IMG/VR virus record: IMGVR_UViG_3300024348_000150
Coordinates: 1-32,873 of that record
Origin: a virus
Direction: 5' to 3' (one strand)
DNA: 32,873 nucleotides
The translations under genes and the position numbers were made by a program. The notes under the pieces were generated by a model. The model did no database searches. It was not told the origin of the DNA and was given only the letters and a program-made list of their open reading frames with translations. Of the stretch, positions 1,781-20,619 are shown piece after piece. Every line of letters begins with the position of its first letter. The first letter of the stretch is position 1.

Positions 1781-1789
1781 GTATTTATT
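1781..1789 (-). promoter_or_regulatory. Putative T4-type late promoter element (AATAAATAC)
   Basis: On the minus strand this reads AATAAATAC, close to the T4 late promoter consensus TATAAATA. It overlaps the stop codon of the giant gene and ends 20 nt before ATG 1760. The same nine bases occur before gp6, and a related site precedes the tube-cap gene. Late phage transcription from such sites depends on a gp55-type sigma factor, which is encoded in this window. Confidence 0.6.
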
Positions 1790-4700
1790 TGACTAGCTCG
1801 GTTACTTTGGTCCTAAGGAACCTTGCAATGTCATTTTCTTGTCTAGTTAGGCTAGTTCCAGGATCTGTCCAGAGTTTACCTTTTTTACGTACTATAATAA
1901 TCTTTTGATTCTCTAATGGAGCAGTAGTAAGTGTTAATGTACTAGTTGTACCGTCTATACTAAACTCTGCCGCACTTGATGCATCACCTTCTGGACTATC
2001 TAAATTAGTAGCCGGATTAAAGATATCTATAGCATTCTTTCTCATACGCTTACCTGCAACAAATACTTCAAACTCGTTTATACTTGTTGGTATAAAGTCT
2101 AGTTCATAAGCAGTTGAAGTACCGTCTGCTGTAAGTACCTGTGTTAGTGTTTCGTCTACATAAGGAATAGTTTGTCCAATGCTTTGTTCAATTACTGTAG
2201 TTCCTGCAGAATAGGTTGGTTTAACTCCTGTTCCGAGTGTTCCTCTACGTAATTGTCTCAAAGTATTGTTTTGTTTCACAAAATATTCAATTCTTTCTCC
2301 ATCAATAAACACCACTCCGGGTATTTTTGACGTTTTATTAGGCGTTGGCAACTGACTTGCATCTAATAATTGTATTTTTAAATCAGACCAATTAAGTGCT
2401 TCTGCTAACATATACTTATTCGAATCATCCATACGCTTATAGTGAGTCCGGTTTAGCATATCTTTAAACTGTCTAAACCCAAACTTCTGTAGCGTTGGAG
2501 GAGCAGTAAAGTGTATTAACTCAATAGTGTCGTTTGAATTAATTGGTTTTGTTATTTTAATATGATTTTTGTCTTCTGTAACATAATAATCTACTACTGG
2601 TGTTAATTGTACACCATTTAAGACTACCCACACATATTTTGAATTATTAACAGCTTTGCGTAATTTTACAAATCCATTAGTTAATAATGTATATTCTTGG
2701 AAATCTACTGTTCCTTCTGATACTGATGTCCTAGTAATAACATTATATTTAATACGTTCAATATCTTGTATGTCATGATTACTAAATGTAGTAATTTCTA
2801 CAGTAGCGTCAATTGCCGGAGCATTATCAAAATATATTACCCCTGGTGTTGAAATAAACTTAGTTGAACTATCAGGTCCTGCTTCGATACCTACATATCC
2901 AAATGCATATTCTCCGTCTGCTACTAGGAATACATCAAGTATTTGTCCAGCTGTTGCTATGTTAGGCGTTAAGTTAACTATATTACTAGCTGAATCCCAT
3001 TTGTATTCAATGTTCCTTACTAACTTAATACCATCTATATAAACTTCAATATCCTCGCCACGTATAGTATTAAGACCTAACTGCCAATTCTGTAATTGGT
3101 ATTGTAGTAAATTTGTCACAACATGCCTATCACTATATCCTGAATTTAATATAACTCCGTTAACTTTAACTATTGTTTGGTTAGCAACTGGATTGCTTCC
3201 TATTGGTGTGTTAGCTAATGTATAAGTTTTTGTACTTCCATCTGCTGTAAATTCTTGTGATGCTACTTGACTGAAGTTTGTTCCTGTTGCATAAAATAAT
3301 CCATAATCTATTACTGCGTCTAGTGCAGGTGCTGTATCAAATCTAATTCCTGCGTATCCTTTATCAACTCCGTAACTATCTCCTGCAGAGAAAATTGTAA
3401 CTGATTGTGCAACTCCGTTAATATTAACAAAGTTTGTCATATTTGATTGCCATTCTACATTAGTAATAAACTCTACTGAACTTCCGTCTCCTGTAAATTT
3501 ATTAATATCTAAGATCTTTTGTCCTGCTTCTCCCATAACTATTATGTTTAATAATTTACGTGTTGTAGGTGCTGTTGAAAATGTAATAGTATTAGTTGCG
3601 TAATTTACTGTATATAAACTTGGTGCAACTTTAACATTATCAAGTCTTACAAATATTGCATCTGCTGAATTAGGATGTCCTGCTAGATTAAATGTATCTT
3701 TAATACCGTCTGTCCAATATACATTACTATAAATTGTACTACCGCCATCAACTGAACGATGAAATACTTTTAAATCCATTGTATCTAATATCTGTCCAGC
3801 AACTAATTCTTCAGGACCTTTACTAGTAGTTGGAGTTACAAATAAGTCACCGTCTACTACTATTTCAGAAGCCGATATACCTCTAGCAGTATCATATAAT
3901 GTAGTTCCGCCATCAAGTAATGTATCGTAAGATGTTACATCAGGTTTAAAGCTACCATCACTAGTAGTTTTTCTAATAATAAATGTGTCATCACTATTTG
4001 CTGTTATGCCTAAGTTTTGTAAATTTATTTCAGTTTGCCCTGCACCTGTAATACTAAGCATCTTAGCATTTGGATTAGTAGCTTCACTAGAATCATTGTA
4101 ATACAAATCGTCTATTCTTATATTATTTTTATAGACATTATATACAACACCAGTTTCTAATGGCGTAGTCCATGTTAATGATGTCGTTGATCCGTCTAGT
4201 TGAAATACTAGATCTTCGTATGTGTTATCATAGGTATCAAATGTTTCTGTAAAGAACGGATCAGTATCCCAACCTGCACTACCTTCAAAACTAAAACTTT
4301 TAATTTCAACGCCGCCGTAGTCAATACCTTCCATTAACTGCGAAACATCTTTACCTATCATTCCTGTAGTAGGATTATAAAGTAAATTAATTCTATCCTG
4401 TGCATCTAGTAAATTTGCATCTTTGCTATATGTAACAGTTATTGCCGCACCTAATTTAGGTGGAGTAGTAAAAGTAATCTGACCAATTTCTCTGTCATAT
4501 CCTTTGGTGGCGTCTTTAATATTAGTAAACGTATACTCGCTTCTTAATAATTCAATACCTGTAACCACTACTGTTGTATTTGTATTTTTCCTATCCATTG
4601 GCCATTTTAATTTATAATTAAATTGGGTGCCTGTTCCTGTAAATGATTCGCTTGTAGCAAGAGTAGTAATATAATAACTTCCACTAACTCTATCAAACTT

Positions 4701-7700
4701 AAACTTAACTTTAGTACCTCTAACTACTCCGTTACCAAGAATAGCACTTGCTCTAGCAATAGTACCATTATCACTTAATCCGCCATCAACAATAATTGTT
4801 GGAGCACTTAAATAACCACTACCTGAAGTTAATACTTCAATTTTACTTATTTTTCCATTATTTAAATATGCTTTTGCTGTTGCACCTGATCCGCTACCGC
4901 CTTCAAATTTAATTACTGGAGGTAGATTATATAAATTACCCGGGTCTCCAATTTCAATACTTGAAACTTCATAACCTGAATTATCGTACCAATGTTTATC
5001 TGGATACGATGATACATCACGTTGACCATAAATTGCGTCACTGTCTACTTTTGCAGTCGAAGCTTCTATTTTCTGTGTTGCTATACTATACTTAGGAGGT
5101 AAATCAAAATCTGATACTGTTGTGTTAGTTGGATCAATTTTTTCATATGAACTTACAAACTCTCTAACTTTTGTTTTGTACGGCTTAACTTCATTAATAT
5201 ATGTTTGGTAGCTTTCTAAATTATCATTTTTAAATGTAACTTTTTGTGCTAACTCGCCTAAGTTATGTTGTGCTTTGACAAAGCTAGTTTTAAATGCCCA
5301 ATCAATATTTGGCTGTTCACTAAACGCATATCTAATGCTTGATAAAAATAATTTATTATATTCAGCTTCTAAATTATCAACAAATATCTTATCTCGTAAT
5401 GTTTCTAATATTATTCTTGATTCTGTTACAGGTTGTGCATCAAAAAATACACTATCGTAATTATTACTATCAAATCCTACTTTACTTTTTCCTACATTAT
5501 ATAATGTATCAGTAAACATAATAGTTGCATTTTGTTTGCCGATTGTTTTATAATTTACTGTGTAATCTTCAGTATCTACGTTTGCTATTTTTTGTAGTAA
5601 TAGCCATCCGCCTGAACCAACATTTTCAATTTTTACAGTATCATTAATATCATTATCTAAGCCAGTTAATAAATAACTTGCTGAAATTATATCTGTAGGT
5701 GTAACAAAATTATTATATCCCGGAGCATACCAGTCTACATAATTCCAATAAAGATTTGTATCATAACGCTGGCTTACACTTCTTTCCCATTTAGTTCCTA
5801 CTAATTCGTATATACTCCATTTGCCGGATACATTAGAATCTGAACTAACTAATGCAGAGAATTTTCTAACTGTAAGTGTAGTAGTTTCATCATATCCCTT
5901 ACCTGCATTTATAATTGTTACTGTAGCAATTTGTCCAAGTTCATTTAATGTACATTCTACTTCAGCACCTGTTCCAATTCCATTAACTGTAATCTTAGGG
6001 CCTTTCCTAACACCACTAGTATATGTAGAATCAATATATCCTCTACCAGTACCTGTAATTAATACTTGTGTTAATGTACCGTCAATAATTGTTGGGGTTA
6101 ATGTAGGTACTGTTTTATTACCTATTCCTAAAAATGCTAAGTCCTCAAATGTATCAATTACCGAATCATAAAGTTGTGTACTAGCACTTGGTGCTGGATC
6201 ACTTTTAACTAAATCACTAATATCAAATTCGTCAACAATTATATGTTGTTTCAAAACATCGTTTGTTCTTTCAATTACTTGTTTAAATGCTTCTGATTTA
6301 TTTACAAATAGACCTTGTCTTGGCCTATCTTGTATTCCATATTTTAATTTAACACTTAATGCAGGATCTGGTACTAGTCTATCCTTATTATCGTATCCAA
6401 TTAAACTGTCAAACCATTTGCGTTCAATATCTTTGTTAGGCTTGCTAGTAGCAACGCCCTGTGCAATCATTTGATATTCGTTGTGTATATTTTGATTTTT
6501 ATTACTAGTAGTGTAGTAACGAATGTTTAATGCAATATCTTTATCTTCCATTAACTGTGCTACATTAAATAACGAGAATCTATCTTTACTCATAAGTGCG
6601 GCAAACTTATACCCTGCGCCTGCAGGGTCTTTAATAAGTTGCTGAACAGCACTTGCACTTAAATTTCTAAAGTCTACTTCTGGAATAGTTTTTTTATTTA
6701 ATACCCAAAAATAGTACTTTGTTGATGTTGAATTAGATATAGTATCCCATACTAGTTGTTGACTATAAGCATTATCGCCATATTTTGATAAACCACTTAT
6801 TCCTTGTGCTATACCTTCCTCAGTATCTGCAAGTGAATCCCATTCACTTGGTAATATATTAGATTCAACCCATTCCCATATTGCAATGTCTGTTCCTGGA
6901 AATACTTCTGACCAAAAATTTGTTTGATAAGTTATATCGTTTTGATAATAATTATAATACTTAACTGCACTTAGATCCCACCATAGTTTGCCAACTGTAT
7001 CATTAGTCCAGCCACCATAAGTATCAACAACAACACTAGTATCACCAATATTATAAGACGCAGGATCGTAATAAGTTTTAAAACTTAATTCTTGCTCTGC
7101 TATTCCTGCAATTTTTCCTTGAACTGGATCAATTAGATCAATATCAGCAATGAATGTATTTGTTTTTGTGTTATATAGGAATGCACTTTTAATATTAGAC
7201 AAATCTACTTGGTCTAATGGATTTCTATGTGTAACCCATGCAGTAGTTCCAAGTATTTTTCTATAATCAACTACCATGCCTTGATACGTATTAAAGTCTG
7301 TCATATGAGGCATACTTGCATAAACGTGATTGTTATTTACTAGTATGTTTTTACCAAACATTATTGAGTCACTATTATCAAACAAAAACTCTTCAGCATA
7401 TACTAATGTTTCATTAATTCTTTCGTAAGTGTAAATAACTCCACTATCCATCATTACTGTTTTAAAGTTAGTAAATTTGTTATCAAAGTAAGTATTTTCT
7501 GCATCAAATATAGTTGGAGAATCAATGTCTCCTTGTAATGCTGTTACAGCTAATACATTTCCATCAAATCCTAGAGCAGTACCAAACTGCTCTGCAACTT
7601 CATTATTATGACTAGTTAATGTCTGTGATAAAGTAAATGTTCCTGCTGTTAGTTTATAAATGTAAACTTTGCCTTGTGAGCTTGCAACTGAGTTATTATA

Positions 7701-10700
7701 AGGTTCACCTACAGCAATTAACGTACCGTCTGCACTAATTGATATTGCATCGCCAAACCCAGTAAGAGTATCTGTACTCACATCAGTGTATGGTCCCTCA
7801 ATTGTTTGTGATATAGTAAACTGGCCGTTAACTTGACGATAAACATTAACTGCTCTAGCTCCTGTACTATCATTACCTTGTATCTTAGTGCTTGTAATTA
7901 ATACTTGTCCTGTTTTATCTTGATCAAACTTCTTAGCAAAGTCTCTAATTCCGCCTTCTGGAGTATAAATTCCTTCTCCTATAACTAATTGTTCTGGCGT
8001 ACTTGGTATATACCCAACATGCGTAGTAGTACTAGATAATTTAGTCCAGTTTGTTGTAGAAAATGCTGACCCACTAGCAATGTTTTGATTTGCACTATAT
8101 AATTCTTTATTATATGATACAATTTCGTCTACTTTATAGAATGTAGTTACACTAAACTGGCCTCTAAATAATGGATTAATATCTAATTGCCAGTCATAAT
8201 TTACAAAAGTATTTCCAACAGTATTTTCACGTCCGTTTTTAATAAAATGTATACTACCTGGATTAGATTCAGTATCATTTCCGTTTGAAGCAACTGCAAC
8301 TCTATAAAGTGCATTAACTCCTGTACCGGTTTGTGTTACTTGTATTTCATCACCAAATTTCTTATAGTGCTCTCTTTCAGGTATTACATAAGAATTATTA
8401 TGTTCAAACTGATTTACTTCACTAATTGAGTATATTGAAATCATACCTTCTTGTGTTAATCCACTTCCGGTAGCATTTGTACTATTGCTTGCAATTAAAT
8501 TATTTACTTGTGACCAGTCATTATTATTACTTGACGGAATGTTAGCACCTCTAGCAATACCTTGTAGTGTAATTTCATTATAGATCCAATATTCTTTATC
8601 TAGTAGCTGTGTAATAGCAACATTAGCAAAGTTAGTTGTTTCTGTTATAACAAATATTTTTCCAACTTCTGAAGTTCCTAGCGAAACATTTTTAATTTCG
8701 CCCATTGTTCTGTCTGGAGTTCCTTGTCTAATAATATCAGATGTTTGTCCCCAATTATCACCTAAACTCCAATTTCCAGTAGTATTTTTAACATACAATC
8801 TTACATCATTAAACTGTCTTTTATAGAATACAACTTCTGCTGTTGCGCCACTTGATGCATCTCTGACTATATCACCAACTGCTGGTTCAAAAGGTAACTG
8901 ATTTAGTGTACTAAAATTATCAAATACGAAATCAATATATCCGTCCCATACATCAGCAATAGTATGTTGCTTATTAAGTATATCAAATGTAAATGCTGTA
9001 CCTGTTAAGTCTACTAAACCGCTTTGATTGTCGACCTTAAGAAAGAATTGGTCTCCTATAGTCTTTACATCTGAAAATACTTTAGGAACTCTTATTGCCC
9101 ATTGATTAGAAGTTTGAACTCCGAATACTTCTCCCGGGTCGCCCTCATAAGTAAAACTTTCAATAAACGATATTTGATCGTTTGCTGATGTTTTTGCTCC
9201 AATAGCTTGTATATTATCTTGTATATTATAAAAATAATTTGGCGTTCTGCCTGAATTTTCTTTAATAACATCTACATATATTAATCCTTGCCCCGGATCT
9301 ACAAATATATTAGAACTATCTGCTGATGTTTCATAAGCAGGTGTTGTTATCATCCAATATCCGCCGACATTACTTGAAGGATTTACGTAATCTTCAGTAT
9401 AATCTCCAACTGCAATCTCATTAATAAACAACTGTCCTGTTGATGCAAATGTTCCATTTACATCTTTTACGTATACTATTGCGGCTCCGTCTGCATCGCC
9501 AACATAAGCTACTGTGCCACTAGCAACTGCACTATTTACTGTTTGTCCTACACCTGGTAAGTTTTGGAAGTTTGCAATATGTAATACATTCTCAACTTTA
9601 TTAACAATAGGATGCGTATCTGTTAAAAACGCACCAGTTATTGGTGCAAATTGTCCGTCAAATGGTTCTACAGCAACATTATATCCTTGAATATTTAAGT
9701 TACTATAAGTATTCCATTTTAATACAATACTGTCGCCTTCTTTAGATCCTTCGTATGCTTGCTTAGGTGCTCTTACTAATAAATGAGTTGTGTTTGGCTT
9801 ACTGTTAAGTTTATAGTTGCCAGTTTGGAGCAAATTAAGTAGTGTACTATCAGTATCAGAAACTATATCAGCATAAGAATCAAAAGTAGTATACGGAATA
9901 GATCCAACTGCGCCGTCGATAACTGCTACTGCTTTAAACAAGTTAGGACCATATTTTATTATATCATTTTTATTATAGTTACTACCTTCGATATAGGTAC
10001 CTTTATATGCAGTTTTTACATTACTTGCATGAGGTGATCCAATAATTAAATACTTTCCGTCTGGACTGAACGAAACACTTTCGCCAAATTTCTGTGATGT
10101 AATTTCTGTACTTCCGTCATATGTGTCAACATATGTTGAAGGAGCACTAATTGTTTGATCAAATACTAAATTATTTGCATCACTTGAACGTTTATAAACA
10201 TGCACTTCGCCGTTTCCTTTATCAGGAATACCAATAGCTAATAATGTATTAGCTTCATTTGCAGTAATACTATGTCCAAAATTATGTTGAGTGCTATCTA
10301 ATGGAAGACTACTTTTAAGTGTTTGTGCTTGAGTATATACTGGAGAGTTTTTAATAACTTTCCATTTTCCAGTATCATCATCATCGACCCAAATTACTTC
10401 TTTTGATTGTAAGTCTTTAGTACTTAAATTATTTGCATCTGATAATGTACTAACTCGTTGGGTTGAAAATTTTGTTATTATACCATTTAAATTAGTTAAC
10501 GAAGCTAGTTTTTCCCAATCAGGAAGTTCTGATTCTATTTCAATTTTATTATTGAATACATCTGTAATAGTATAAAACGCCTCTACTGTTGTTGGAGCAG
10601 TATCAGTTCCAACTATTTGATCTATATTATAAATTCCAATAATATCACCTATTGCAACATTAACTGTGTTATTACAATTAAGTGTTATAGTAGTAGATTC

Positions 10701-13700
10701 TTGCGTTATTGTTTGAATTATTAAATTACTATCAACATGCTTTAATACATTCCATGATTGATCGTCTGTTGCTACCCATACATATGCACCCTTGTCTATA
10801 TCACTAGTTGCAAAATTTAGTAATCCGGCAGTATTAGATACTGCTCTATTAACATCTTCGCCTGTAACATACCCAACTGTTTTTACATATTCGTCATTTA
10901 AAAATTTTGTTGGCAGTCTGTTTGTTTCGTAATCTTTAGGTTTTAAAAATACATCATAATGCGGAATTCTATAAGTTAGATCTGTTGTTGCAGTTGGTAC
11001 AACGTCTACTAGCTCAATTGGTTGTGGCTCAAGTCTAAATTTAGCCTCGTCTAATTGATATTCAATTTCTTCAAATCCATCACTTGCACCGTATTGTGCA
11101 GATTTAATAGCCCATTCTTCATAAAAGTCAACACTATCTTTATCAGCACTTGCTAAACTATCAAATAATTTATCAATAGCATTTCTTGTACCTTTATCAG
11201 CTATCATTCCTTGATAAAATTTATATTGACTTACTTCGTCATTAATAATGTTTTCTAAATATTGTCTTTTTTGGTAGCCAATTAAATGCTGTGCCATTTT
11301 TTGTTGATCTGAATCAAAATTATCTGAATCAAGATCGTAAAAGTCAGAAAATTGATTAATTCTATAATCAAAGTTTGTTAGCAGTTTTGTATCTGGCTTT
11401 TTATCTAATCGAGCCCAGTTTAAGGGATCAAATATTTCTGTTCCTGTAATATTAGTCGTTGCACTATAATAAAATTCTTTGTATTTTACTACATCACCAA
11501 TAGCAAAATCAGTCCATTGTGCCCAATTAACTACTTTAGCAGAATCAAATATAAATCCAGGAATATTAAGACTACCAGTCCATCCAGCGGCTACATATCC
11601 TAATACTTTAATTCTTTCTTGTCGATATCCTGTAGCAGGACTGTATATTACATCTTCAAATACTGATTTATTATCTAAAACTGCAACATGTTCATATTGC
11701 ACTTGAGGGAGAATTGAATGATAAAGTCCATCAGCAGTATTTTTAAGTTGTATTACAAAGTTTCCACTGTCTCTGTTTAATCTTGTAAGATCTTCAGTTA
11801 TTTTTTGACCGCTGGCATTTAAAATACTATAATCATAAAAGCTATCATATAAGTTATCAATTACAGAAAATGTTGAATTAAATTCTAATTTTGAAGCCGA
11901 TGGACTAATTGCTAAAACTGTCCCGGCCGCCCAATTTTGTGTGGTAAAATATAGAAATTCTTTTGTACTTAATTTCCAATCTTCAACAACTTGTGATTCT
12001 TTATTATAGTAATCAAATTTAAATCCTACAGATTCTAAATAATTTCCGTAGCCTAAGATAAAATCAACTACATCTTGTATTGATTCAAGTAACGTGCCAT
12101 ATGGTAAAACTTTAACATCTGTTTCAAAACTTTTTCTATATACTGCGGTACGTCCGCCAAGTGTAGGAAGTTCAGCCATTGGCTGAAATTTATCTGCTTC
12201 AAAACTCGTAGTACTTGTATGCTCTGCTTTTACTCTGTAAAATTGACTATTATTTCTTACATTACTACCTACTAAGTATTTTTGCCCTGTTGACCATTCT
12301 AAGAAAGACTCTGATATCCCGCCAACATTAATATTTGGATCACTTATAGTTACTTGTGGTTCATTGTAATTAAACGTAGGGTTTGTATTATCGTATCCTC
12401 TAACAATAAACCCACCTGGTGCTTTTTCAATCATTATACCACTATAAGATGCTACCTTTAACGGAGAACTTTTATTTAAGAAAATGTTGTAATTCTCTGT
12501 TGGTAAGAATACGTTTCCTTTATTAAATGGAGTTCTGCTATCTAGTATAAATTTTAATTTTTCTTTATCAGTAAATGACCCTAGCTTAATACCTAATTGA
12601 TTTTTAATTAATTTAAAATTTTCTTTATAAGTTGAAACATCTGTTGTTCCTTCACTAGCTAAGTAATCAACAATATAATTAATTAATCCTGATGTATGAG
12701 TTATAGTAGTATCAGTTGCAACTGTTGGTAATACTAAATCTTTAGATGATAATGATTTTTCAGTTGTAGAATATATCCATTGACCTGATAACGACTTATT
12801 CATCCTAGATAGATCAAATCCTAATCCCATTATTTTATGAGGTTGATTTAATATCCAAGACTTAATTAAACTAAATGGATATTCTCCACTACGTCTCCAA
12901 GCAGTTTCTGTAGGGCCTTCGTCGCCAAACTTTAGAGAAGATGCAATTGATGACGGAACAAATCCTGATGTAAATCCTGCTTCTTGTGGACTTAATAGCT
13001 GTCCAGATTCATTAACTGGAATATGTTTAAGTAATTCTTTTCTTTTATATTTTTTAATAAATTCTGCAGGAACATTAGGTGCTTTAATCTTACCTTCTTG
13101 TATATCTTCCCACATTACTAAGTTATTACTTGTATAAGGTGCAGGACCATATTGTGTTTCCCACCAAGTAGGCATAATTGTAAAGCCTAACATCTCCCAA
13201 GGATGGCTATGGGGTCTATCTGTATCGTATGCTTGTTTATATACAGATCTCCAAAATCCGTTAACATTTGTCTCGTCTCGTGTAGACATCTCTGAATAGT
13301 TCCATGTAAAACTATTAGCTCTAGTATAAAAATCTGTAGTTGAAGTATAGTTTAATCCGCCTAGGCTTTCTGACCACTGTACAAAATCACGCATCATTGC
13401 ATTGTCTATTTGTGTTTTAGTAAATTTTGTATTTCTATCGTTACTTGGCACAAAATTGTGTATATCTAATCTAGTAGTATCATATGTTATTTTAATATTA
13501 TTAAAAATTCTTTTTTCTAATTCTAATAATAACTGATCTCTATAGTCCATGAACGCTATTGTTTTACTGCCGTCGTGACCTTGTATTACTCGTGTAGTTG
13601 TTTGGTAGGTATCATCTTCTATTATTTCTGGATGATATGAAGGATATAATCCTAACTTAGTTGGAGTTGGTGGAATAAAACTTCCGGCTGTATTTTCATA

Positions 13701-16577
13701 CTCAAATATTTCAATTAAATCATTTTTAGTTTTAGTTGCTGTTATAACAGCAAATCCATCTGTATTAAATGTATAATCTTTATTATGTATTAATTGAACA
13801 CCGTTTTGATAAATTGTAACTGCTTTTGATGAAAGTGTATTTAAATCATATACTTGGCTTAATGAAAAGAAATTATTTTCTGAATCATAAACTACAAATT
13901 CTAAACGCTTGTAACCTTCACCAGGAACCATATCACTAAAACGATAAGGATCAGTATCTATTTTATCTTTATGATATTCATGTAATATTTTATCAACATG
14001 TTGCTTTACTGGTCCATCATAACCCAACGTTTCGGCTATTTGTAAAAAAGATCTTTTAAATTTTCTATATTCTTTTCTAGCAAAATCAATTGCTTTAATT
14101 ATGTTTGCATCTTTATCAGTAGCATGATATACATTTATATTTGGTGACCCTGCATACTGTAAAAACTTTTTACCATAAGATGATATATTACCAAGACTTG
14201 CAATATTACTTACTCCAGGAAATATTCCTGTAAACCCTGGTAAGTCTTCTATCATAGTATTAACATGGTCATTTACTTCTCCTAGTGTAAATGTACTAAG
14301 ATTTTCATTTTCTGGATTTTTTTCCATTGCATGTGGAAATTCGTAGTGCCCGTTAGCATTTTTAATTGTATCACTATTAGTTTTAATTACTACACTGCTA
14401 TTTACAGGTATTGCTGTTGCAAATCTAACAGTCTTAACTCCGTTAACATCTACAAGAGTATAATCAAATCTCCAAGTATTATCAACTTGAACTGCACATT
14501 TTAGATCTGTAAGTGTACTACTGTTATCATAAACATCAATACTAAAATCTGTTTGTGCAGTAGTAACGTCATACTGTCTAATAACTTTTGAGACTGTATT
14601 TGTATTAGCTTTCTTCCAACCATTACAATAAGTAAAACTATCAATATCTGTGTAAACTCTATAAAATCCAGTATCAGACTTTTTAGATAAAGGTGTGTTA
14701 TTAATTTGATAATTAAACGTATCTGTTACTAAATTAAAATCAAAAGTTATATCACCTACATTTTCTAATGCTCTGTAAGTAATAGGAAATCCTAATTCAA
14801 TGTCATTAGTGCCTGATCCAACTTTATAACTAAAGATTTTGTTACCACGGAAATCATTTACTGGATAAGTAGTTTCGTTGGTAAAACTAATACCATTATT
14901 ATCAAATAATTCAAATAATGGTTGTTGATTTATTTTTGTTTTTAGTTGTGCTACTTTCCAATCAGTGCCATTATAATAATACTGTTTACCTGCATTAGTA
15001 CCTTTAGTTATTAATGCAACCTGGTTAGTAATTGGCAATGTGTCGTCTTCTTCAATCAGTGCAATTTGCGTTACTGTTGAATTGTGTTTAATCATTTTAA
15101 CTTTATAGATTCTATCTTTTACAAGTAGATCAGGATCAGCTACGAACAAAATACGCATGCCGTCAGTAATATCAACACCGTCAATATTATAACCTTCTCT
15201 ACCATTAATAGTTGAAAATACATCAGTAGTAAATGTATCTATAAGATCTACATTTTCTGCTTTTGCTGATGTACCAAATTGATAAAGTTTCATTCCGGCA
15301 TTAAATTCAAGAATTGGTCGTTTAGCTCTTGCACTTTGATCAATATTAAAAACTTGTCCATTTAGAGTTGCTGTTTTTTCAAGTACTGATTTATGAAACC
15401 ATCGATTGTTTCTAGACCAAGCATTTTTATCAGGAGATGCTCTATTAATTACAACATAGTCCTTAGTTGCCGCATACGAACTAGCTGTTCCATATGGAAG
15501 GTTATCAAAGTTATTTGCATCAAATAGCACTTCTATATCTTCTGAATATGTTTGAGGGATTATTAAATCTGTGTCTTGGATTAGTAAAATTTTATTACCT
15601 ACTCCTTCAACATACCAAGAACCTGTTGCATATTTTACAGGAGTAACTGTTCCTGTAAAATTAAGCTTCATTCCGTTCATTAATTCAGTACCGTTTGCAC
15701 TAGTATAAGTTTTTTTACCTAGTATATCATCAGATATGTTAATAGATGTATTTGATTCAATTTCTGCAATTCTAAACATTCCGCCTGTATTAACATCTGT
15801 TTCTGAAACATAATACAATCTCTCAGGAGCATTTAGCGGAACAGTAAATGTTACAACACCATTGTCAACACCAGCGTTAGTAACTCCTGTTGCGTATTCA
15901 TTGTCACTTTCAATCAATCTCGAAGTTCTTATTGTAAACGGAAGTCCAGGAGTACCTACATCAAATATATAAGTTTGTCCTCTATATAATTCTAATGTAG
16001 GATTCTGTGTTAATTCACCATTAAATACGTAACCCTTATTTCCAGCATTATCAACGCTATTTACAGTATATGTACTTGTAACATCATCTGATTGTCCAAA
16101 AATTGATATTGGAGCAGGACCACTTGGTAGCCAATAATACTCACGGAAGTTTGTAAGTTTATCCCAGTCTACGCTAGAATCCCAAGAGTAATATTCTTGA
16201 CTATTGAATAAACTTTCATTAGTAGTAGTACCACCTAATATATCAAGCTGATTTCTAAAATCATTATAATCTTTATAAAATAAAACATTATTCAATATAT
16301 CTTTAGAAACTAATGCAGGCTCTAATTGATAATTAGTTCTATTAGCGTTAACATCGCCTAGATAGATATCTGTCGGTGAGTATGCCGGAGCTGTTTTTCT
16401 ACCAAGATAACCATTTAATTTTTTAGCTGTACCAGGCTTTGTAACCTGATCGAGTGTAGAATTTAAAAATTTTTCATTACTTTCTGTACGAAAGTATTTT
16501 GGTAATAGTTCAGCGGACTTTCTATCAGATTTACCATTAACTGGTAGTGGATAGTCCTTTTGATCATCGTACGCCAT
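1785..16577 (-). CDS. Giant 4930-aa baseplate wedge/tail protein (gp7 position), multi-domain
   Basis: This single uninterrupted frame covers 45% of the window. Position after gp6 suggests a wedge component like T4 gp7 (about 1030 aa), but homology to gp7 is not visible. Residues 20-150 carry a motif set (YFRTESNEKFLNSTLDQ, YYSWDSSVDWDKL, REYYWLPSGPAPISIFG) that I associate with large tail proteins of marine T4-like phages. About 197-212 is a cupredoxin-like YRGQTYIFDV...PF. About 996-1028 has GHDGSKTIAFMDYRDQLLLE; 1124-1147 HPWEMLGFTIMPTWWE. Carbohydrate-module-like repeats lie near 1426, 1685, 2190 and 2804. FG-type propeller repeats start at 2100, 2164, 2741, 2884, 2941, 2998 and 3074. Glycine-rich GxGY modules lie near 3512-3566 and 3883-3931. 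From about 3950 to the end there are adhesin-like beta modules (DGST...VNGV...DY). It starts one base inside the gp6 stop; GGAGGA lies 11 nt upstream. Confidence 0.85.
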   Translation of the reverse strand: MAYDDQKDYPLPVNGKSDRKSAELLPKYFRTESNEKFLNSTLDQVTKPGTAKKLNGYLGRKTAPAYSPTDIYLGDVNANRTNYQLEPALVSKDILNNVLFYKDYNDFRNQLDILGGTTTNESLFNSQEYYSWDSSVDWDKLTNFREYYWLPSGPAPISIFGQSDDVTSTYTVNSVDNAGNKGYVFNGELTQNPTLELYRGQTYIFDVGTPGLPFTIRTSRLIESDNEYATGVTNAGVDNGVVTFTVPLNAPERLYYVSETDVNTGGMFRIAEIESNTSINISDDILGKKTYTSANGTELMNGMKLNFTGTVTPVKYATGSWYVEGVGNKILLIQDTDLIIPQTYSEDIEVLFDANNFDNLPYGTASSYAATKDYVVINRASPDKNAWSRNNRWFHKSVLEKTATLNGQVFNIDQSARAKRPILEFNAGMKLYQFGTSAKAENVDLIDTFTTDVFSTINGREGYNIDGVDITDGMRILFVADPDLLVKDRIYKVKMIKHNSTVTQIALIEEDDTLPITNQVALITKGTNAGKQYYYNGTDWKVAQLKTKINQQPLFELFDNNGISFTNETTYPVNDFRGNKIFSYKVGSGTNDIELGFPITYRALENVGDITFDFNLVTDTFNYQINNTPLSKKSDTGFYRVYTDIDSFTYCNGWKKANTNTVSKVIRQYDVTTAQTDFSIDVYDNSSTLTDLKCAVQVDNTWRFDYTLVDVNGVKTVRFATAIPVNSSVVIKTNSDTIKNANGHYEFPHAMEKNPENENLSTFTLGEVNDHVNTMIEDLPGFTGIFPGVSNIASLGNISSYGKKFLQYAGSPNINVYHATDKDANIIKAIDFARKEYRKFKRSFLQIAETLGYDGPVKQHVDKILHEYHKDKIDTDPYRFSDMVPGEGYKRLEFVVYDSENNFFSLSQVYDLNTLSSKAVTIYQNGVQLIHNKDYTFNTDGFAVITATKTKNDLIEIFEYENTAGSFIPPTPTKLGLYPSYHPEIIEDDTYQTTTRVIQGHDGSKTIAFMDYRDQLLLELEKRIFNNIKITYDTTRLDIHNFVPSNDRNTKFTKTQIDNAMMRDFVQWSESLGGLNYTSTTDFYTRANSFTWNYSEMSTRDETNVNGFWRSVYKQAYDTDRPHSHPWEMLGFTIMPTWWETQYGPAPYTSNNLVMWEDIQEGKIKAPNVPAEFIKKYKRKELLKHIPVNESGQLLSPQEAGFTSGFVPSSIASSLKFGDEGPTETAWRRSGEYPFSLIKSWILNQPHKIMGLGFDLSRMNKSLSGQWIYSTTEKSLSSKDLVLPTVATDTTITHTSGLINYIVDYLASEGTTDVSTYKENFKLIKNQLGIKLGSFTDKEKLKFILDSRTPFNKGNVFLPTENYNIFLNKSSPLKVASYSGIMIEKAPGGFIVRGYDNTNPTFNYNEPQVTISDPNINVGGISESFLEWSTGQKYLVGSNVRNNSQFYRVKAEHTSTTSFEADKFQPMAELPTLGGRTAVYRKSFETDVKVLPYGTLLESIQDVVDFILGYGNYLESVGFKFDYYNKESQVVEDWKLSTKEFLYFTTQNWAAGTVLAISPSASKLEFNSTFSVIDNLYDSFYDYSILNASGQKITEDLTRLNRDSGNFVIQLKNTADGLYHSILPQVQYEHVAVLDNKSVFEDVIYSPATGYRQERIKVLGYVAAGWTGSLNIPGFIFDSAKVVNWAQWTDFAIGDVVKYKEFYYSATTNITGTEIFDPLNWARLDKKPDTKLLTNFDYRINQFSDFYDLDSDNFDSDQQKMAQHLIGYQKRQYLENIINDEVSQYKFYQGMIADKGTRNAIDKLFDSLASADKDSVDFYEEWAIKSAQYGASDGFEEIEYQLDEAKFRLEPQPIELVDVVPTATTDLTYRIPHYDVFLKPKDYETNRLPTKFLNDEYVKTVGYVTGEDVNRAVSNTAGLLNFATSDIDKGAYVWVATDDQSWNVLKHVDSNLIIQTITQESTTITLNCNNTVNVAIGDIIGIYNIDQIVGTDTAPTTVEAFYTITDVFNNKIEIESELPDWEKLASLTNLNGIITKFSTQRVSTLSDANNLSTKDLQSKEVIWVDDDDTGKWKVIKNSPVYTQAQTLKSSLPLDSTQHNFGHSITANEANTLLAIGIPDKGNGEVHVYKRSSDANNLVFDQTISAPSTYVDTYDGSTEITSQKFGESVSFSPDGKYLIIGSPHASNVKTAYKGTYIEGSNYNKNDIIKYGPNLFKAVAVIDGAVGSIPYTTFDSYADIVSDTDSTLLNLLQTGNYKLNSKPNTTHLLVRAPKQAYEGSKEGDSIVLKWNTYSNLNIQGYNVAVEPFDGQFAPITGAFLTDTHPIVNKVENVLHIANFQNLPGVGQTVNSAVASGTVAYVGDADGAAIVYVKDVNGTFASTGQLFINEIAVGDYTEDYVNPSSNVGGYWMITTPAYETSADSSNIFVDPGQGLIYVDVIKENSGRTPNYFYNIQDNIQAIGAKTSANDQISFIESFTYEGDPGEVFGVQTSNQWAIRVPKVFSDVKTIGDQFFLKVDNQSGLVDLTGTAFTFDILNKQHTIADVWDGYIDFVFDNFSTLNQLPFEPAVGDIVRDASSGATAEVVFYKRQFNDVRLYVKNTTGNWSLGDNWGQTSDIIRQGTPDRTMGEIKNVSLGTSEVGKIFVITETTNFANVAITQLLDKEYWIYNEITLQGIARGANIPSSNNNDWSQVNNLIASNSTNATGSGLTQEGMISIYSISEVNQFEHNNSYVIPEREHYKKFGDEIQVTQTGTGVNALYRVAVASNGNDTESNPGSIHFIKNGRENTVGNTFVNYDWQLDINPLFRGQFSVTTFYKVDEIVSYNKELYSANQNIASGSAFSTTNWTKLSSTTTHVGYIPSTPEQLVIGEGIYTPEGGIRDFAKKFDQDKTGQVLITSTKIQGNDSTGARAVNVYRQVNGQFTISQTIEGPYTDVSTDTLTGFGDAISISADGTLIAVGEPYNNSVASSQGKVYIYKLTAGTFTLSQTLTSHNNEVAEQFGTALGFDGNVLAVTALQGDIDSPTIFDAENTYFDNKFTNFKTVMMDSGVIYTYERINETLVYAEEFLFDNSDSIMFGKNILVNNNHVYASMPHMTDFNTYQGMVVDYRKILGTTAWVTHRNPLDQVDLSNIKSAFLYNTKTNTFIADIDLIDPVQGKIAGIAEQELSFKTYYDPASYNIGDTSVVVDTYGGWTNDTVGKLWWDLSAVKYYNYYQNDITYQTNFWSEVFPGTDIAIWEWVESNILPSEWDSLADTEEGIAQGISGLSKYGDNAYSQQLVWDTISNSTSTKYYFWVLNKKTIPEVDFRNLSASAVQQLIKDPAGAGYKFAALMSKDRFSLFNVAQLMEDKDIALNIRYYTTSNKNQNIHNEYQMIAQGVATSKPNKDIERKWFDSLIGYDNKDRLVPDPALSVKLKYGIQDRPRQGLFVNKSEAFKQVIERTNDVLKQHIIVDEFDISDLVKSDPAPSASTQLYDSVIDTFEDLAFLGIGNKTVPTLTPTIIDGTLTQVLITGTGRGYIDSTYTSGVRKGPKITVNGIGTGAEVECTLNELGQIATVTIINAGKGYDETTTLTVRKFSALVSSDSNVSGKWSIYELVGTKWERSVSQRYDTNLYWNYVDWYAPGYNNFVTPTDIISASYLLTGLDNDINDTVKIENVGSGGWLLLQKIANVDTEDYTVNYKTIGKQNATIMFTDTLYNVGKSKVGFDSNNYDSVFFDAQPVTESRIILETLRDKIFVDNLEAEYNKLFLSSIRYAFSEQPNIDWAFKTSFVKAQHNLGELAQKVTFKNDNLESYQTYINEVKPYKTKVREFVSSYEKIDPTNTTVSDFDLPPKYSIATQKIEASTAKVDSDAIYGQRDVSSYPDKHWYDNSGYEVSSIEIGDPGNLYNLPPVIKFEGGSGSGATAKAYLNNGKISKIEVLTSGSGYLSAPTIIVDGGLSDNGTIARASAILGNGVVRGTKVKFKFDRVSGSYYITTLATSESFTGTGTQFNYKLKWPMDRKNTNTTVVVTGIELLRSEYTFTNIKDATKGYDREIGQITFTTPPKLGAAITVTYSKDANLLDAQDRINLLYNPTTGMIGKDVSQLMEGIDYGGVEIKSFSFEGSAGWDTDPFFTETFDTYDNTYEDLVFQLDGSTTSLTWTTPLETGVVYNVYKNNIRIDDLYYNDSSEATNPNAKMLSITGAGQTEINLQNLGITANSDDTFIIRKTTSDGSFKPDVTSYDTLLDGGTTLYDTARGISASEIVVDGDLFVTPTTSKGPEELVAGQILDTMDLKVFHRSVDGGSTIYSNVYWTDGIKDTFNLAGHPNSADAIFVRLDNVKVAPSLYTVNYATNTITFSTAPTTRKLLNIIVMGEAGQKILDINKFTGDGSSVEFITNVEWQSNMTNFVNINGVAQSVTIFSAGDSYGVDKGYAGIRFDTAPALDAVIDYGLFYATGTNFSQVASQEFTADGSTKTYTLANTPIGSNPVANQTIVKVNGVILNSGYSDRHVVTNLLQYQLQNWQLGLNTIRGEDIEVYIDGIKLVRNIEYKWDSASNIVNLTPNIATAGQILDVFLVADGEYAFGYVGIEAGPDSSTKFISTPGVIYFDNAPAIDATVEITTFSNHDIQDIERIKYNVITRTSVSEGTVDFQEYTLLTNGFVKLRKAVNNSKYVWVVLNGVQLTPVVDYYVTEDKNHIKITKPINSNDTIELIHFTAPPTLQKFGFRQFKDMLNRTHYKRMDDSNKYMLAEALNWSDLKIQLLDASQLPTPNKTSKIPGVVFIDGERIEYFVKQNNTLRQLRRGTLGTGVKPTYSAGTTVIEQSIGQTIPYVDETLTQVLTADGTSTAYELDFIPTSINEFEVFVAGKRMRKNAIDIFNPATNLDSPEGDASSAAEFSIDGTTSTLTLTTAPLENQKIIIVRKKGKLWTDPGTSLTRQENDIARFLRTKVTELVK
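7250..10290 (-). other. Interrupted beta-propeller region inside the giant protein
   Basis: Seven repeats begin with FG or KF followed by a strand, a D/N-G turn, a hydrophobic I.G.P-type strand and a G.v.vY strand. Their first Phe residues are 2100, 2164, 2741, 2884, 2941, 2998 and 3074. The clearest are FGESVSFSPDGKYLIIGSP and FGDAISISADGTLIAVGEP. Repeat 2 opens at 2164 but its closing GMISIYS strand is near 2711, so about 520 residues are inserted in one blade. Repeat 3 holds a second, smaller insertion near 2804-2846. FG-GAP/WD-like propellers have this pattern; seven blades is my count by eye. Confidence 0.55.
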
Positions 16578-19500
16578 TAGTAACTATATCCTCCGCTACT
16601 GCTACTGCTACTGCTATTGCTACTGCTACTGCTACTGCTCGAGCCGCTATTTGAATTAATAGTAGTGTTATAAGAACTACTAGAACTTTGTATTCCAGTA
16701 TTTGCTGTTTCTGTACTTGCTGTTACAACGTTGCCTGTTGCTTTTAATCTAGTTGCTGTTATGCTATCTATAATGTCTACATCTGCAACTGTTGCTCCAC
16801 TTATAAAAATTTCATCTGACTCTGACTTAATTTCGTATAATGATCCAAATGCTTGTGTGTCTTCATTTGGAACAATTACTATAGAACTAATATTAGGTGC
16901 AAGCTGATTCATTATATACGTTGATAATTCTGAAAAGTAAAATGATTCGCCAAATTCCCAATTCTCTAAACTAAAATATTCATTTATTGCGTTTATTACA
17001 TTTGATTTAATTTCATTATCATTTGTAACTGTTTCTACATTTTTTACAATTTTAAAGGTTGCTTGCAAACTAGCCTCCGCTGATGGACCAAAAAGTATTT
17101 TATACTTTACTGGATGATAAATTACTTCATCACTAATAGATTTAATTTTATCTAACGCAACACCATAACTTCTATAAAGTTGATCGCTACTTGGCGGCAT
17201 TGGTTTTACTGCAATATCTCCGTTAAGCCATTGTCTATAACTGTTATCATATAAACGAGTCAACATGTAAATATCTATTAAATTTGTACTACTAGGATCA
17301 ATTCTTTTATTATTGTCTGCGGCATGTACGTACCTAAATTTTAAATCTGATCTTCCTAAAAATGCTTTATAAGTTGATATTTGTGTTAATGTAAGTTTAT
17401 CAGTTGATAGTTGCTTAAATAATCCAGTATCAATGTAGTAAAAAACTTCTAATGCATCATAAGAACTATATGCATTCATTGCCGATTCAGTTGTTAGTAC
17501 ACTAATATTTTCGACGTTTGCTTTTACATATTTGAAATCTTCAACTCCATCAGTAGTAGTATATTTTTTCTCGAAAATATATTTTGTAGTCGGTGATATT
17601 GTTTCTTGTACAATATCAATAAACGAATTTGGGTTATCAACAACACCATCATCGTCGTCATCAAAGAAAGATATTTCTACTTTTTTGGTATCGACATATC
17701 CATCATTGTCTCTATATTCTTTTGTAATTTCAAAATTATAATCTTTTGTAAAAGGAGTAGTACTACCGGGTAGAGTATTAATACTTAATACTTCAATTTT
17801 ATCTTTAATAATTTTTCCTGTTTTATTATCATAAATTTTATCACTACTGTCATAATAAAATTTAATCTCATTATCACTTTCATATACATAACGCATTGCT
17901 CTATATGTAATATCGTATTTTTCGCCATCAGTTTTAAACCACAGTAACCAACTTGCATCTAAATTTTGACTACTAACATCACCTGTTTTACCTGTACTAA
18001 ATGGACTAGTAGTATTTAGGTTTACTTCTGTAATAATTCTCCATTGTCTAGTAGATACATCGTATCGCAAGCCAAAAGTATTATTAGCAAACGCTTGATC
18101 AATAATTTGTGTTTTAACAGAATTAAGTATTTTTGTACTTAATTTAGGTCTAATCTCTGTTAATAATGCAGTTGATGGAATACTGTCATTTAATACTATT
18201 GGTCCTAAACCTGCTGTAGTATTTGTTGTGCCGTCACCATTAACACTGATTACTTTTACCCATTTGTAAGTTAAAGACCCAGGGTGATTGGCATCTCCTA
18301 TCATAAGTGTAGTTTTGTCACCTACCATAAAATGATACCCTGCAGGTGCTTCAAATTTTAGTAGTGACCCTGCTTCTAACAAACTAAGATTATTAGCTGT
18401 AAAAGATCCTACTTTATATTTTGCATCACTTTCATCTATTAAATATCCTGTTCCTCTATTAGTATCTGTAGTAACCTGCACCCATTCTGCTTTTAAATCA
18501 GACGTAATAATTTTTGTAAAATTTGTAAGGTAGTAATTTAAAACTCTTCTGTCTTTTAATATTGGTTCTATTTTATTTGTAATAGCACTTTCAATATCTG
18601 TTTGTGTTGTGTAAGGAAAACTGTCTTTTTGAGTTAAATTTTCTTTATATATAATACCATCATTTGCAAATAAATTAGTACTACTATATTTTCCTGTAGA
18701 ATCTAATAAGTCGTAGTATCTACTAATTCCGCTTGCAAACCTATTAACTGATTTAACTTTAATAATATCTTGACTTATACCTAATGGAGCAACATTGTAA
18801 TCTTCTGCTGTAACCATTCTATTTTGTGTATAATATGTTGACGGAGCATTTTGTTTAATGCTATCGTTTGATTCACTAGTAGTACTATTAGACACTGTAT
18901 ATTTTAATTCTAAATTAAGTGTAATTGTTTCAATTACGTTACTTTTACTTAGATACGGAACTCTTACTTGTATTCCGGTCATGTCTTGCGGTTTAATTAC
19001 ATATCTTTGATTATTACTAGTTCTATAAAAGACTTTAAATACACCTTTTGGTAATTCACCAAAAGTACCGTCGGAAAATACTAAACTAACTCTGTCACTT
19101 ACTCTAGTAAGTACACTATATATTGTTCTAACTTTTTTACTAATGCTATTATAGATAACATTGTTGCCTTCAACAGCTTCAACTTTTGTCCAGTATTCTG
19201 CTTCTTGTCCTGACGAGTCTAATTTATATAACCATACATCGTCGTTGTTAATATTAGTTGCATCAATATCAATTATTTGATTTGTTGTAGGATTATTAAC
19301 AACAAATTGACCACTGTCAAGTGATCCTTGTTTGAACATACAAAAGAATCCTGTATTACTACTTGACGGTCCTTTGCCATCATCTTTAAATAAGTATGCA
19401 AAACTATTTGCAGTTAGTGGAATTTCTTCTTGTATACTTTTTAAATCCGAATCAATATCTGTAGAAACAACTTCAAAATCTAAACTAGATCCTTGAACTG

Positions 19501-20110
19501 TTTTATTAAAGCCATATTTTGGAATATCTGTGTTTACTGCATTAAATCTATATTGTTGGTGGGGAACGCCGTCAACATTTTCCTTTTTGAGAGGGCGACC
19601 AAATGTTCCATTAACTGGTAATGCAGTATTCATTATTTTAATAAATTGCTCATACCAATCAGTATTAGTAGGATCGTTCCATTGTATTTCTTGATTTGCT
19701 AAATTAAAGTTGTTACTATCTACAACTTCTTCTGTTGTTGAAATGCTAGTAACTTTAAGTAACCCTTGTGCGGCTTGATTACGCTTTGGATTGTAAGAAA
19801 GTAACCGTGCTAGACGGAGAACTGATTCTCTACGTTCAGCTAATTCTAAAAAGTTTTCTCTTGCATTTAGATCAATACGGAAGGAAATATTTTGACCTAA
19901 AAAAGCAATCAAATCAATTAAAGAAAGGTATTCGCTTGATTCAATATAATCATTAAAATCTTCAGGATAATTAGTCCTCAAGTATGATATCATTGTTCGT
20001 CTTAGATTATCAAAATCGTAGCTTTGAAAATCAGCGTTACGAAAACTTTGGTAAACCCTCTTCCAATCTTCTGCTACTAATAACCTATTTTGTCTATCTG
20101 TTGTTGACAT
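16577..20110 (-). CDS. gp6: Baseplate wedge protein gp6
   Basis: The N-terminus is unmistakably gp6: residues 57-80 (ESSEYLSLIDLIAFLGQN then ISFRIDL) and 82-112 (NARENFLELAERRESVLRL, then LSYNPKRNQ) match the conserved region of T4 gp6. gp6 dimers form the inner ring that joins baseplate wedges around the hub. At 1177 aa it is nearly twice the T4 protein (660 aa). The extra middle part includes an acidic loop near residue 815 (DDDDDGVVD) that fits a DxDxDGxxD calcium-binding pattern. Residues about 1028-1130 (NAINEYFSLENWEFGESFYF...) look like the C-terminal baseplate-J-type region. The last ~40 residues are a Ser/Gly/Asn tail encoded by a hexanucleotide repeat. A late promoter element ends 23 nt upstream and AAGGAAGG serves as ribosome binding site. 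The stop shares one base with the start of the giant gene. Confidence 0.95.
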   Translation of the reverse strand: MSTTDRQNRLLVAEDWKRVYQSFRNADFQSYDFDNLRRTMISYLRTNYPEDFNDYIESSEYLSLIDLIAFLGQNISFRIDLNARENFLELAERRESVLRLARLLSYNPKRNQAAQGLLKVTSISTTEEVVDSNNFNLANQEIQWNDPTNTDWYEQFIKIMNTALPVNGTFGRPLKKENVDGVPHQQYRFNAVNTDIPKYGFNKTVQGSSLDFEVVSTDIDSDLKSIQEEIPLTANSFAYLFKDDGKGPSSSNTGFFCMFKQGSLDSGQFVVNNPTTNQIIDIDATNINNDDVWLYKLDSSGQEAEYWTKVEAVEGNNVIYNSISKKVRTIYSVLTRVSDRVSLVFSDGTFGELPKGVFKVFYRTSNNQRYVIKPQDMTGIQVRVPYLSKSNVIETITLNLELKYTVSNSTTSESNDSIKQNAPSTYYTQNRMVTAEDYNVAPLGISQDIIKVKSVNRFASGISRYYDLLDSTGKYSSTNLFANDGIIYKENLTQKDSFPYTTQTDIESAITNKIEPILKDRRVLNYYLTNFTKIITSDLKAEWVQVTTDTNRGTGYLIDESDAKYKVGSFTANNLSLLEAGSLLKFEAPAGYHFMVGDKTTLMIGDANHPGSLTYKWVKVISVNGDGTTNTTAGLGPIVLNDSIPSTALLTEIRPKLSTKILNSVKTQIIDQAFANNTFGLRYDVSTRQWRIITEVNLNTTSPFSTGKTGDVSSQNLDASWLLWFKTDGEKYDITYRAMRYVYESDNEIKFYYDSSDKIYDNKTGKIIKDKIEVLSINTLPGSTTPFTKDYNFEITKEYRDNDGYVDTKKVEISFFDDDDDGVVDNPNSFIDIVQETISPTTKYIFEKKYTTTDGVEDFKYVKANVENISVLTTESAMNAYSSYDALEVFYYIDTGLFKQLSTDKLTLTQISTYKAFLGRSDLKFRYVHAADNNKRIDPSSTNLIDIYMLTRLYDNSYRQWLNGDIAVKPMPPSSDQLYRSYGVALDKIKSISDEVIYHPVKYKILFGPSAEASLQATFKIVKNVETVTNDNEIKSNVINAINEYFSLENWEFGESFYFSELSTYIMNQLAPNISSIVIVPNEDTQAFGSLYEIKSESDEIFISGATVADVDIIDSITATRLKATGNVVTASTETANTGIQSSSSSYNTTINSNSGSSSSSSSSNSSSSSSSGGYSY
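16595..16639 (-). repeat. GCTACT hexanucleotide microsatellite coding poly-Ser
   Basis: On the plus strand GCTACT is repeated about seven times with one C-to-T variant unit near 16616. On the coding strand this alternates AGT and AGC, both Ser, giving most of the serine tail of gp6. Gain or loss of one 6-bp unit would change the tail by two serines and keep the frame. The tract ends a few codons before the gp6 stop and immediately precedes the likely ribosome binding site of the giant gene. Confidence 0.85.
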
Positions 20111-20166: not shown

Positions 20167-20619
20167 TTACGACATCAAACCATTGTTTTCATCAAATGTT
20201 AAACGCATAGATTCTGATATGTTGTAAGGAAGATATGTAAGGTCTATTTCAATCTGTATTCCAGTCTCAAACGAATCAACTGTAACTTGATTTACTTGTG
20301 TGCGTGGATCATAGTTTACAATTTCAGTAACATTCTTTGCTACTGCACTTCTTAATTGATCTGTCATCGGTTCGAATAACACTTCCCAAATAATTGTTCC
20401 AAATTCAGGATTTTCTAATTTTTCGCCTTGCCTAATATGAAAGTAGTTAATTAAGTCTTGCTTAATTAACGCAAGATCGTATAATGTAGTTGAAGTATTT
20501 TCAGGATTAACTGAACTTAATCCCCTGTATGCCTTCGACGCCGATTGTCTCGAAACAGTAGTTGACTTTCGGCCTGTAACTTTTATTCTTTCAAAAATAT
20601 CTTTTTCTAATGTGCTCAT
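20167..20619 (-). CDS. gp25: Baseplate wedge protein gp25
   Basis: This is a 150-aa protein of the gp25 / GPW family, which has a lysozyme-like fold without lysozyme activity and forms part of the wedge core with gp6 and gp53; T4 gp25 is 132 aa. The signature lies at residues 67-85 (EKLENPEFGTIIWEVLFEP), preceded by YDLALIKQDLINYFHIRQG (47-65). The C-terminal half (VNQVTVDSFETGIQIEIDLTY) has the alternating pattern expected of the beta hairpin of this family. The N-terminal 45 residues are polar and basic and slightly longer than in T4. The gene lies 15 nt after the amidase-like gene and directly before gp6, as in other contractile injection systems where gp25 and gp6 homologues are neighbours. 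Confidence 0.95.
   Translation of the reverse strand: MSTLEKDIFERIKVTGRKSTTVSRQSASKAYRGLSSVNPENTSTTLYDLALIKQDLINYFHIRQGEKLENPEFGTIIWEVLFEPMTDQLRSAVAKNVTEIVNYDPRTQVNQVTVDSFETGIQIEIDLTYLPYNISESMRLTFDENNGLMS

Follow-up and report, generated by a model that had tools for sequence, protein, structure and literature searches.

We propose that the giant gene in this viral DNA encodes a baseplate wedge protein of a jumbo-type phage of the T4 supergroup, which occupies the slot of T4 gene 7 beside gp6, gp25 and gp53 and carries binding arms (probability about 0.7). The protein is probably a baseplate scaffold bearing modules of sugar-binding type. The window, i.e., the whole stretch of DNA analyzed here, comprises 32,873 nucleotides of an IMG/VR record (IMGVR_UViG_3300024348_000150), and its features are listed in Table 1. 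The giant gene is a single open frame of 4930 codons that begins with ATG and fills 45% of the window. This is the unbroken frame described by the original prediction, which had given no strand; its length and share of the window are borne out, and it lies on the minus strand. The ATG shares one base with the stop codon of the gp6-like gene (TAATG), with GGAGG upstream. Directly before this junction, the 3' end of the gp6-like gene (16577-16660) encodes a Ser/Gly-rich tail with repeated AGTAGC units; the gp6 proteins of three related loci (L043, L046 and L047) also finish in Ser/Gly-rich tails.

Table 1. Features of the window and of the giant protein. Residues refer to the giant protein, positions to the window.
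Feature	Residues	Position	Strand	Basis
Giant virion-protein gene		1785..16577	-	4930 aa, 549.9 kDa, pI 4.8 (mass and pI computed); phrog_10938
gp6-like baseplate wedge gene		16577..20110	-	1177 aa; phrog_10646, E 0
gp25-like wedge gene		20167..20619	-	phrog_261/43 (baseplate wedge subunit); synteny
gp53-like wedge gene		27311..27613	-	phrog_7145; PF11246 just under cut-off
Conserved shell part A	1-1900	10878..16577	-	length CV 6%, 79 members
Cupredoxin-like beta sandwich	163-273	15759..16091	-	model 1 structure match; sequence
CBM5/12-like module 1	1424-1474	12156..12308	-	self-profile
CBM5/12-like module 2	1681-1731	11385..11537	-	self-profile; Milano baseplate chain match
FYxGxIxxKGT...EEWA conserved helical segment	1787-1854	11016..11219	-	weak profile similarity to gp7 core
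FG-GAP-type beta-propeller with inserts	2068-3109	7251..10376	-	PF14312, FG motifs, self-profile, integrin-type match
CBM5/12-like module 3, after blade 2	2189-2225	9903..10013	-	self-profile
Insert between blades 2 and 3 (520 aa)	2216-2735	8373..9932	-	present/absent among members; internal repeat
CBM5/12-like module 4, after blade 3	2802-2850	8028..8174	-	PF02839 E 0.0018 (under cut-off); self-profile
Conserved shell part B	3101-3830	5088..7277	-	length CV 6%
GxGY repeat copy 1	3501-3569	5871..6077	-	self-profile
GxGY repeat copy 2	3870-3929	4791..4970	-	common to several cyanophage structural proteins
C-terminal repeat array	3974-4899	1881..4658	-	self-profile
Segment common to PA5oct homologue	4687-4795	2193..2519	-	40% identity

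Upstream of the giant gene lie gp53-like, gp5-like, gp25-like and gp6-like genes, and the order gp25 - gp6 - giant confirms the claim that the gene stands at the site of T4 gene 7. A gene for a CHAP/NlpC-P60-type protein is located between the gp25-like and gp5-like genes (20635-21402); a second gene labelled as lysozyme occupies this position in RaK2, 121Q, GAP32 and XbC2. The genes on the opposite strand correspond by synteny with RaK2 and PA5oct to gp55, gp47 and gp46, and the phosphoesterase domain is the one part of this predicted set that was confirmed by domain search. At 32443-32871, the end of the window cuts off a gene for a SegE-type GIY-YIG homing endonuclease (PF19835, E 3.6e-32), of which the 5' part remains. 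Genes for a portal protein and a major capsid protein of T4 type in a near-identical 59-kb record (G002) place the virus in the T4 supergroup. Matches to the N-domain of T4 gp9/10 were found in five of 12 related records and in neither G002 nor G003, the closest relatives of the window in that set, both of which are fragments. No gp8 match was obtained in the 12 related records, in a search that was likewise without any match in the controls. When the first 20 kb of the window were searched as DNA against phage records, no match was returned.

At the protein level, the giant protein matched phrog_10938, annotated as "virion structural protein", in four stretches (E 3e-300). A tblastn search with its residues 1-1000 hit 71 of 50,697 phage records, every one at less than 60% identity. 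Nine jumbo-phage records contain homologues, in PA5oct (3857 aa), Atu_ph07 (4449 aa), Phosso (4555 aa), SCTP-2 (3807 aa), RaK2 (3326 aa), 121Q (3323 aa), GAP32 (3341 aa), Vibrio 2.275.O (3771 aa) and XbC2 (3339 aa). In seven of the nine, and likewise in CBB, the homologue is located directly 3' of an annotated baseplate wedge gene; in SCTP-2 and Vibrio 2.275.O, the gene upstream carries another label. The family members RaK2 ORF070, 121Q gp582, GAP32_230, CBB_236, PA5oct gp355, Atu_ph07 gp180, SCTP-2 gp140 and the Phosso protein share the gene position of the window protein and are homologous to it in both halves of the conserved shell described below, whereas the C-terminal parts differ between the jumbo-phage members and the window protein. 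The RaK2-type members (3323-3341 aa) also lack the propeller and its insert; their shell halves are about 180 residues apart, compared to 1200 in the window protein.

Public viral contigs contain many members of the family, and deposited records name them "virion structural protein", "structural protein" or "hypothetical protein". IMG/VR holds at least 585 relatives, among 599 pattern-matched stretches listed. Twelve relative loci belong to genome bins from GTDB, and marine titles are frequent among them. Two relatives (L152 and L153) are on contigs of 153 kb and 335 kb binned with a Neomarinimicrobiota genome, and two contigs of this bin carry T4-type portal and capsid genes; this is probably a jumbo phage sampled along with the bin. 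Five IMG/VR records (G005-G009, loci L044-L048) each contain one 4723-aa giant with identical ends and probably represent one widespread virus type. In the literature on these phages, covered mostly at title level and with supplements outside that coverage, we found no account of the propeller and insert architecture; the available portions of PMC10253068, PMC6102473, PMC3622015 and PMC10966104 held nothing on the giant protein.

Members of this family are found in virions. The record of PA5oct gp355 carries the note "ESI-MS/MS", and CBB gp236, a homologue of the window protein, was detected by mass spectrometry with 21 peptides and 7.72% coverage according to the available text of PMC5259590. 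The giant is thus probably a virion protein as well: It belongs to a virion-protein family with homologues from two phages, PA5oct and CBB, present in virions by mass spectrometry. Additionally, Table 1 of PMC7247149 lists phAPEC6 gp245 (381.88 kDa, 17 unique peptides), which adjoins the "baseplate wedge" protein gp244; from its mass and neighbor gene, gp245 would be a further homologue. For AP-J-162, the available text of PMC11242549 describes a 4455-aa "structural protein" that is 49.61% identical to an Atu_ph07 protein and adjoins a 1198-aa wedge protein.

Over 79 members of the family (81 minus two near-duplicates, with several redundant loci previously left out by hand), two regions of the protein are conserved in length (coefficient of variation 6%). 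We refer to these, residues 1-1900 and 3101-3830, as the conserved shell. It makes up 53% of the protein, and the recognized modules amount to about two fifths. The original prediction of a chain of binding-type and adhesin-type modules is thus correct for a considerable part of the protein, but its wording that they form most of the mass was overstated.

AlphaFold models were obtained for residues 1-1180 (model 1; mean pLDDT 84.6, pTM 0.76) and 1000-2190 (model 2; pLDDT 78.6, pTM 0.54). In model 1, residues 163-273 match cupredoxins (Z 9.7-11.0, rmsd 2.0-2.6 over 95-100 residues); this sandwich contains no Cys or His and therefore no type-1 copper site. Model 1 also matched its own family in BFVD. 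Short BFVD matches to gp9-labelled and fibre-labelled cyanophage proteins came from parts of residues 1-1180 and may represent the cupredoxin-like sandwich. The structure search with model 2 gave no match under E 0.001, and the whole protein gave none to E 10 against the sequences of solved structures. The conserved helical segment around 1743-1834 was poorly predicted in model 2, which would fit a part that needs its partners in order to fold.

In order to assess the relationship with gp7, the protein was compared with T4 gp7 and with the cores of gp7 proteins. The original prediction of a wedge-like N-terminus was not supported: Residues 1-165, well conserved inside the jumbo family, did not match gp7 cores (E 0.11), and a PHROGs search with this slice returned just the protein's own family, phrog_10938. 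T4 gp7 (1032 aa) has the same position after gp6 and is 4.8 times smaller than the window protein. It matches all three Pfam gp7 domains (PF21428, PF21427 and PF21456), whereas the matches of the window protein to E 1 include none of them. For 400-residue slices of the 79-member profile, even the best match to T4 gp7 was not significant (E 0.0013, probability 18), and a PHROGs search with residues 1640-1900 by themselves gave no gp7 family to E 1. In favor of a gp7 role, T4-type gp7 (phrog_964) was itself absent at E 1 from the 12 related records, which are fragments, in a search whose sole control genome with a match was a Bacteroides. Among the best 50 structure matches listed for either model, which were filled by single domains, there was no gp7 chain. 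The third Foldseek match, a baseplate chain of a variant of Klebsiella phage KP1 (E 1.3e-4), was rejected as spurious (rmsd 23 Å, TM 0.05-0.10).

A trace of the gp7 core may nevertheless be present at residues 1787-1854. When 80 windows of the protein were scanned against nine gp7 cores, 1681-1860 ranked first with a score of 25.1 (mean 13.3, SD 3.1). The FYxGxIxxKGT segment of the giant is in register with the FYSTKG segment of the T4 core (FYSTKG..FLFKLLYNEE), and the match at 1787-1854 reached E 0.0048 in one comparison; all hhalign E-values given here are for single comparisons. None of 150 column-shuffled decoys reached the score of slice 1700-1880 against the gp7 cores. When the cores were split, the outcome was mixed. 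Against cyanophage gp7 alone, 1700-1880 beat 150 of 150 decoys, yet windows within 3421-3660 scored higher, and against T4-like gp7 alone, 16 of 150 decoys equalled it and the best windows were at 2221-2520. The core profile was built from nine of 11 gp7 proteins; 44RR and Bellamy were excluded because the motif used for cutting was not found in them.

P2 gpI and TssG-type proteins are gp6 partners related to T4 gp7. A comparison of the gp7 cores with P2 gpI, meant as the positive control, failed (E 0.54), and the method therefore cannot exclude remote kinship. In one comparison the "KGT" segment of P2 gpI aligned at the place of the gp7 core, which was not significant (E 0.1), and its best windows in the sliding scan were elsewhere. 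We regard the trace at residues 1787-1854 as no more than suggestive and do not assign the giant protein to the gp7 family.

Very large proteins also follow gp6 in cyanophages. The gene after gp6 encodes 7041 aa in S-P4 and 7124 aa in P-SSM7, both annotated as "virion structural protein". The S-SZBM1 gene encodes 6619 aa (from coordinates) and carries the name gp7 or baseplate wedge initiator; that of P-HM1 encodes 4446 aa (from coordinates) under the name gp7, and that of Bellamy encodes gp111 of 4067 aa, noted as "baseplate wedge initiator". The gp7 slot of Pelagibacter phage Mosig holds a protein of 874 aa. The original prediction of a size several times that of any T4 wedge protein is correct for T4 itself, with a 4.8-fold excess over gp7, but giants in this slot had already been deposited for jumbo phages and cyanophages, and the window protein is smaller than its counterparts in S-P4 and P-SSM7. 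Giants at this gene position are thus already known, and the window protein adds one.

The cyanophage gp7 proteins, wedge initiators and positional equivalents share with the window protein the slot after gp6, the giant size and GxGY repeats (profile E to 9e-12). However, the S-P4/P-SSM7 core matches T4 gp7 (hhalign E 2.9e-6), whereas the window protein has no significant T4 gp7 match. The GxGY repeats, as judged from their distribution among sequences, are promiscuous and no proof of orthology. Several candidate matches were rejected. The matches between slices 3201-4200 and the gp7 proteins of cyanophages (E to 9e-12) lie in GxGY repeats. The match to a cyanophage "baseplate wedge subunit" (GC0399) centers on about 60 residues of the GxGY repeat, which occurs twice in the giant and in several structural families, and it was therefore discarded as evidence of orthology. 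Slice 1-400 matched P-HM1 (E 3.9e-6) through slice positions 168-289, i.e., the cupredoxin-like sandwich, and a match labelled "wedge initiator" from Bellamy (residues 190-326) lies inside the same sandwich; the Bellamy giant after gp6 is a different gene.

Between the shell halves, the FG-GAP_2 domain (PF14312) scored 27.8 bits against a cut-off of 23 in the window protein, and 30 of the 40 members searched matched it at E 0.001. The self-profile places the blades at about 2068-2134, 2121-2187, 2708-2767, 2879-2922, 2906-2964, 2966-3016 and 3043-3109, so that the propeller would have seven. Six of them contain an FG motif, and blade 2879-2922, which has none, was recognized by self-profile alone. 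In the model of its first part, the propeller at its beginning matches those of integrins (Z about 8). A relative without large inserts in the propeller (L113) shows six consecutive FG motifs every 52-57 residues.

The insert between blades 2 and 3 contains an internal repeat (2311-2394 resembles 2527-2629 in the self-profile). The length of this segment is bimodal among the 79 members, with at least 350 residues in 35, fewer than 100 in 40 and intermediate values in four. We mapped presence and absence on a quick tree built from the shell (74 of its 78 rows labelled), from which L118, cut at its N-terminus, was left out and in which the four members with inserts of 100-349 residues were left unlabelled. 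Four changes were counted, all forced by strongly supported branches, compared to about 25 in shuffles, and one of the four falls inside an insert-bearing clade; nine insert-free rows form a clade nested within an insert-bearing one. The distribution of the insert is clade-structured and not a random scatter, while the change count cannot tell gain from loss.

The CBM5/12 domain scored 18.7 bits against a Pfam cut-off of 26.2 in the window protein, and 18 of the 40 members searched matched it at E 0.001. As the score is under the cut-off, we call the modules CBM5/12-like. Module 2 matches a baseplate chain of phage Milano (8fqc_Q1; Z 7.5, rmsd 1.7 over 45 residues). Blade 2 with its module resembles blade 3 with its own module (2121-2224 and 2709-2837), and the two look like one duplicated unit. 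The repeats of the C-terminal array are likely of beta type, and outlying copies were found by self-profile near 687-737 and 913-963.

The most serious alternative, which we consider unlikely but deserving of real weight, is that the giant is a peripheral fibre-like protein of the tail or baseplate and no gp7 equivalent, with another, unrecognized gene encoding the true partner of gp6. The lack of a significant gp7 sequence match, the absence of a gp7 chain among the fold matches listed, the many modules of surface-binding type and the similarity of parts of residues 1-1180 to fibre-labelled cyanophage proteins in BFVD would all fit such a protein. However, the shell keeps its length and sequence over 79 members while the modules vary, as a scaffold would; the slot is that of the cyanophage gene named gp7; and the weak trace of a gp7 core also argues for a wedge protein. 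A protein of the head or neck is very improbable. PHROGs places phrog_10938 in the category "head and packaging", but phrog_701, which includes the cyanophage protein after gp6, bears the same category, so the label looks generic. Further, the baseplate genes gp53, gp5-like, gp25 and gp6 lie just upstream in the window, and the same baseplate neighbors are found in RaK2, 121Q, GAP32, XbC2 and PA5oct.

The idea that the long frame arose by misassembly or gene fusion is scarcely credible, and we count it as already refuted by the relatives. It could draw on G002 (L040, 59138 bases), which is 99.96-99.97% identical to the window and in which a single-base difference introduces an in-frame stop at about codon 2996, splitting the giant gene into ORFs of 2995 and 1889 aa. 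This stop is either a sequencing error or a real mutant, which cannot be distinguished. Against an artefact, contigs G001 and G003 each carry one giant copy of 4931 aa, and nine deposited phages have homologues of 3323-4555 aa. Among 112 loci, the longest ORF was closed by stops on both sides in 52, of which 46 span 3942-5267 codons (counted stop to stop) and six are short. The G003 copy is 86% identical to the window protein, with a dN/dS of 0.105 overall and 0.086-0.110 across seven segments along the whole gene, i.e., the gene is under purifying selection. The frame of 4930 aa is neither chance nor artefact, and its length is ordinary among its metagenomic relatives, the longest further one being 5444 aa.

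We therefore return to the wedge protein as the preferred reading. Based on its position, its conservation and the presence of homologues in virions, the shell (1-1900 and 3101-3830) would be the structural part that, in each of six wedges, takes the place of gp7 and joins gp6. What lies between the shell halves, with the FG-GAP-type propeller and the CBM5/12-like modules, would be displayed outward, as its fold types suggest, and some clades would carry one more large insert in the loop that follows blade 2. Together with the C-terminal repeat array, the propeller region could form a peripheral ring of carbohydrate-binding or surface-binding arms that help to keep the phage attached to its host prior to contraction. 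Wedge membership, the number of six copies and outward display are inferred, and glycan binding is suggested by the fold type and the CBM5/12 scores under the Pfam cut-off. Six copies would amount to about 3.3 MDa per baseplate, several times T4 gp7, and at that copy number the originally proposed large peripheral structure is a reasonable idea. A more specific version, which we put forward tentatively and hold to be rather doubtful, is an adsorption-platform wedge protein: one chain with the function of gp7 that perhaps also takes over tasks which other wedge proteins perform at the periphery in T4, and whose seven-bladed propeller is a docking slot that gains and loses a 500-residue module.

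If the giant protein is indeed the partner of gp6, a wedge can carry receptor-binding mass in one chain and not in separate fibres. The propeller loop between blades 2 and 3 would then be a concrete target for comparing host range among jumbo phages, and the plug-in propeller insert is the part of the giant most worth following.
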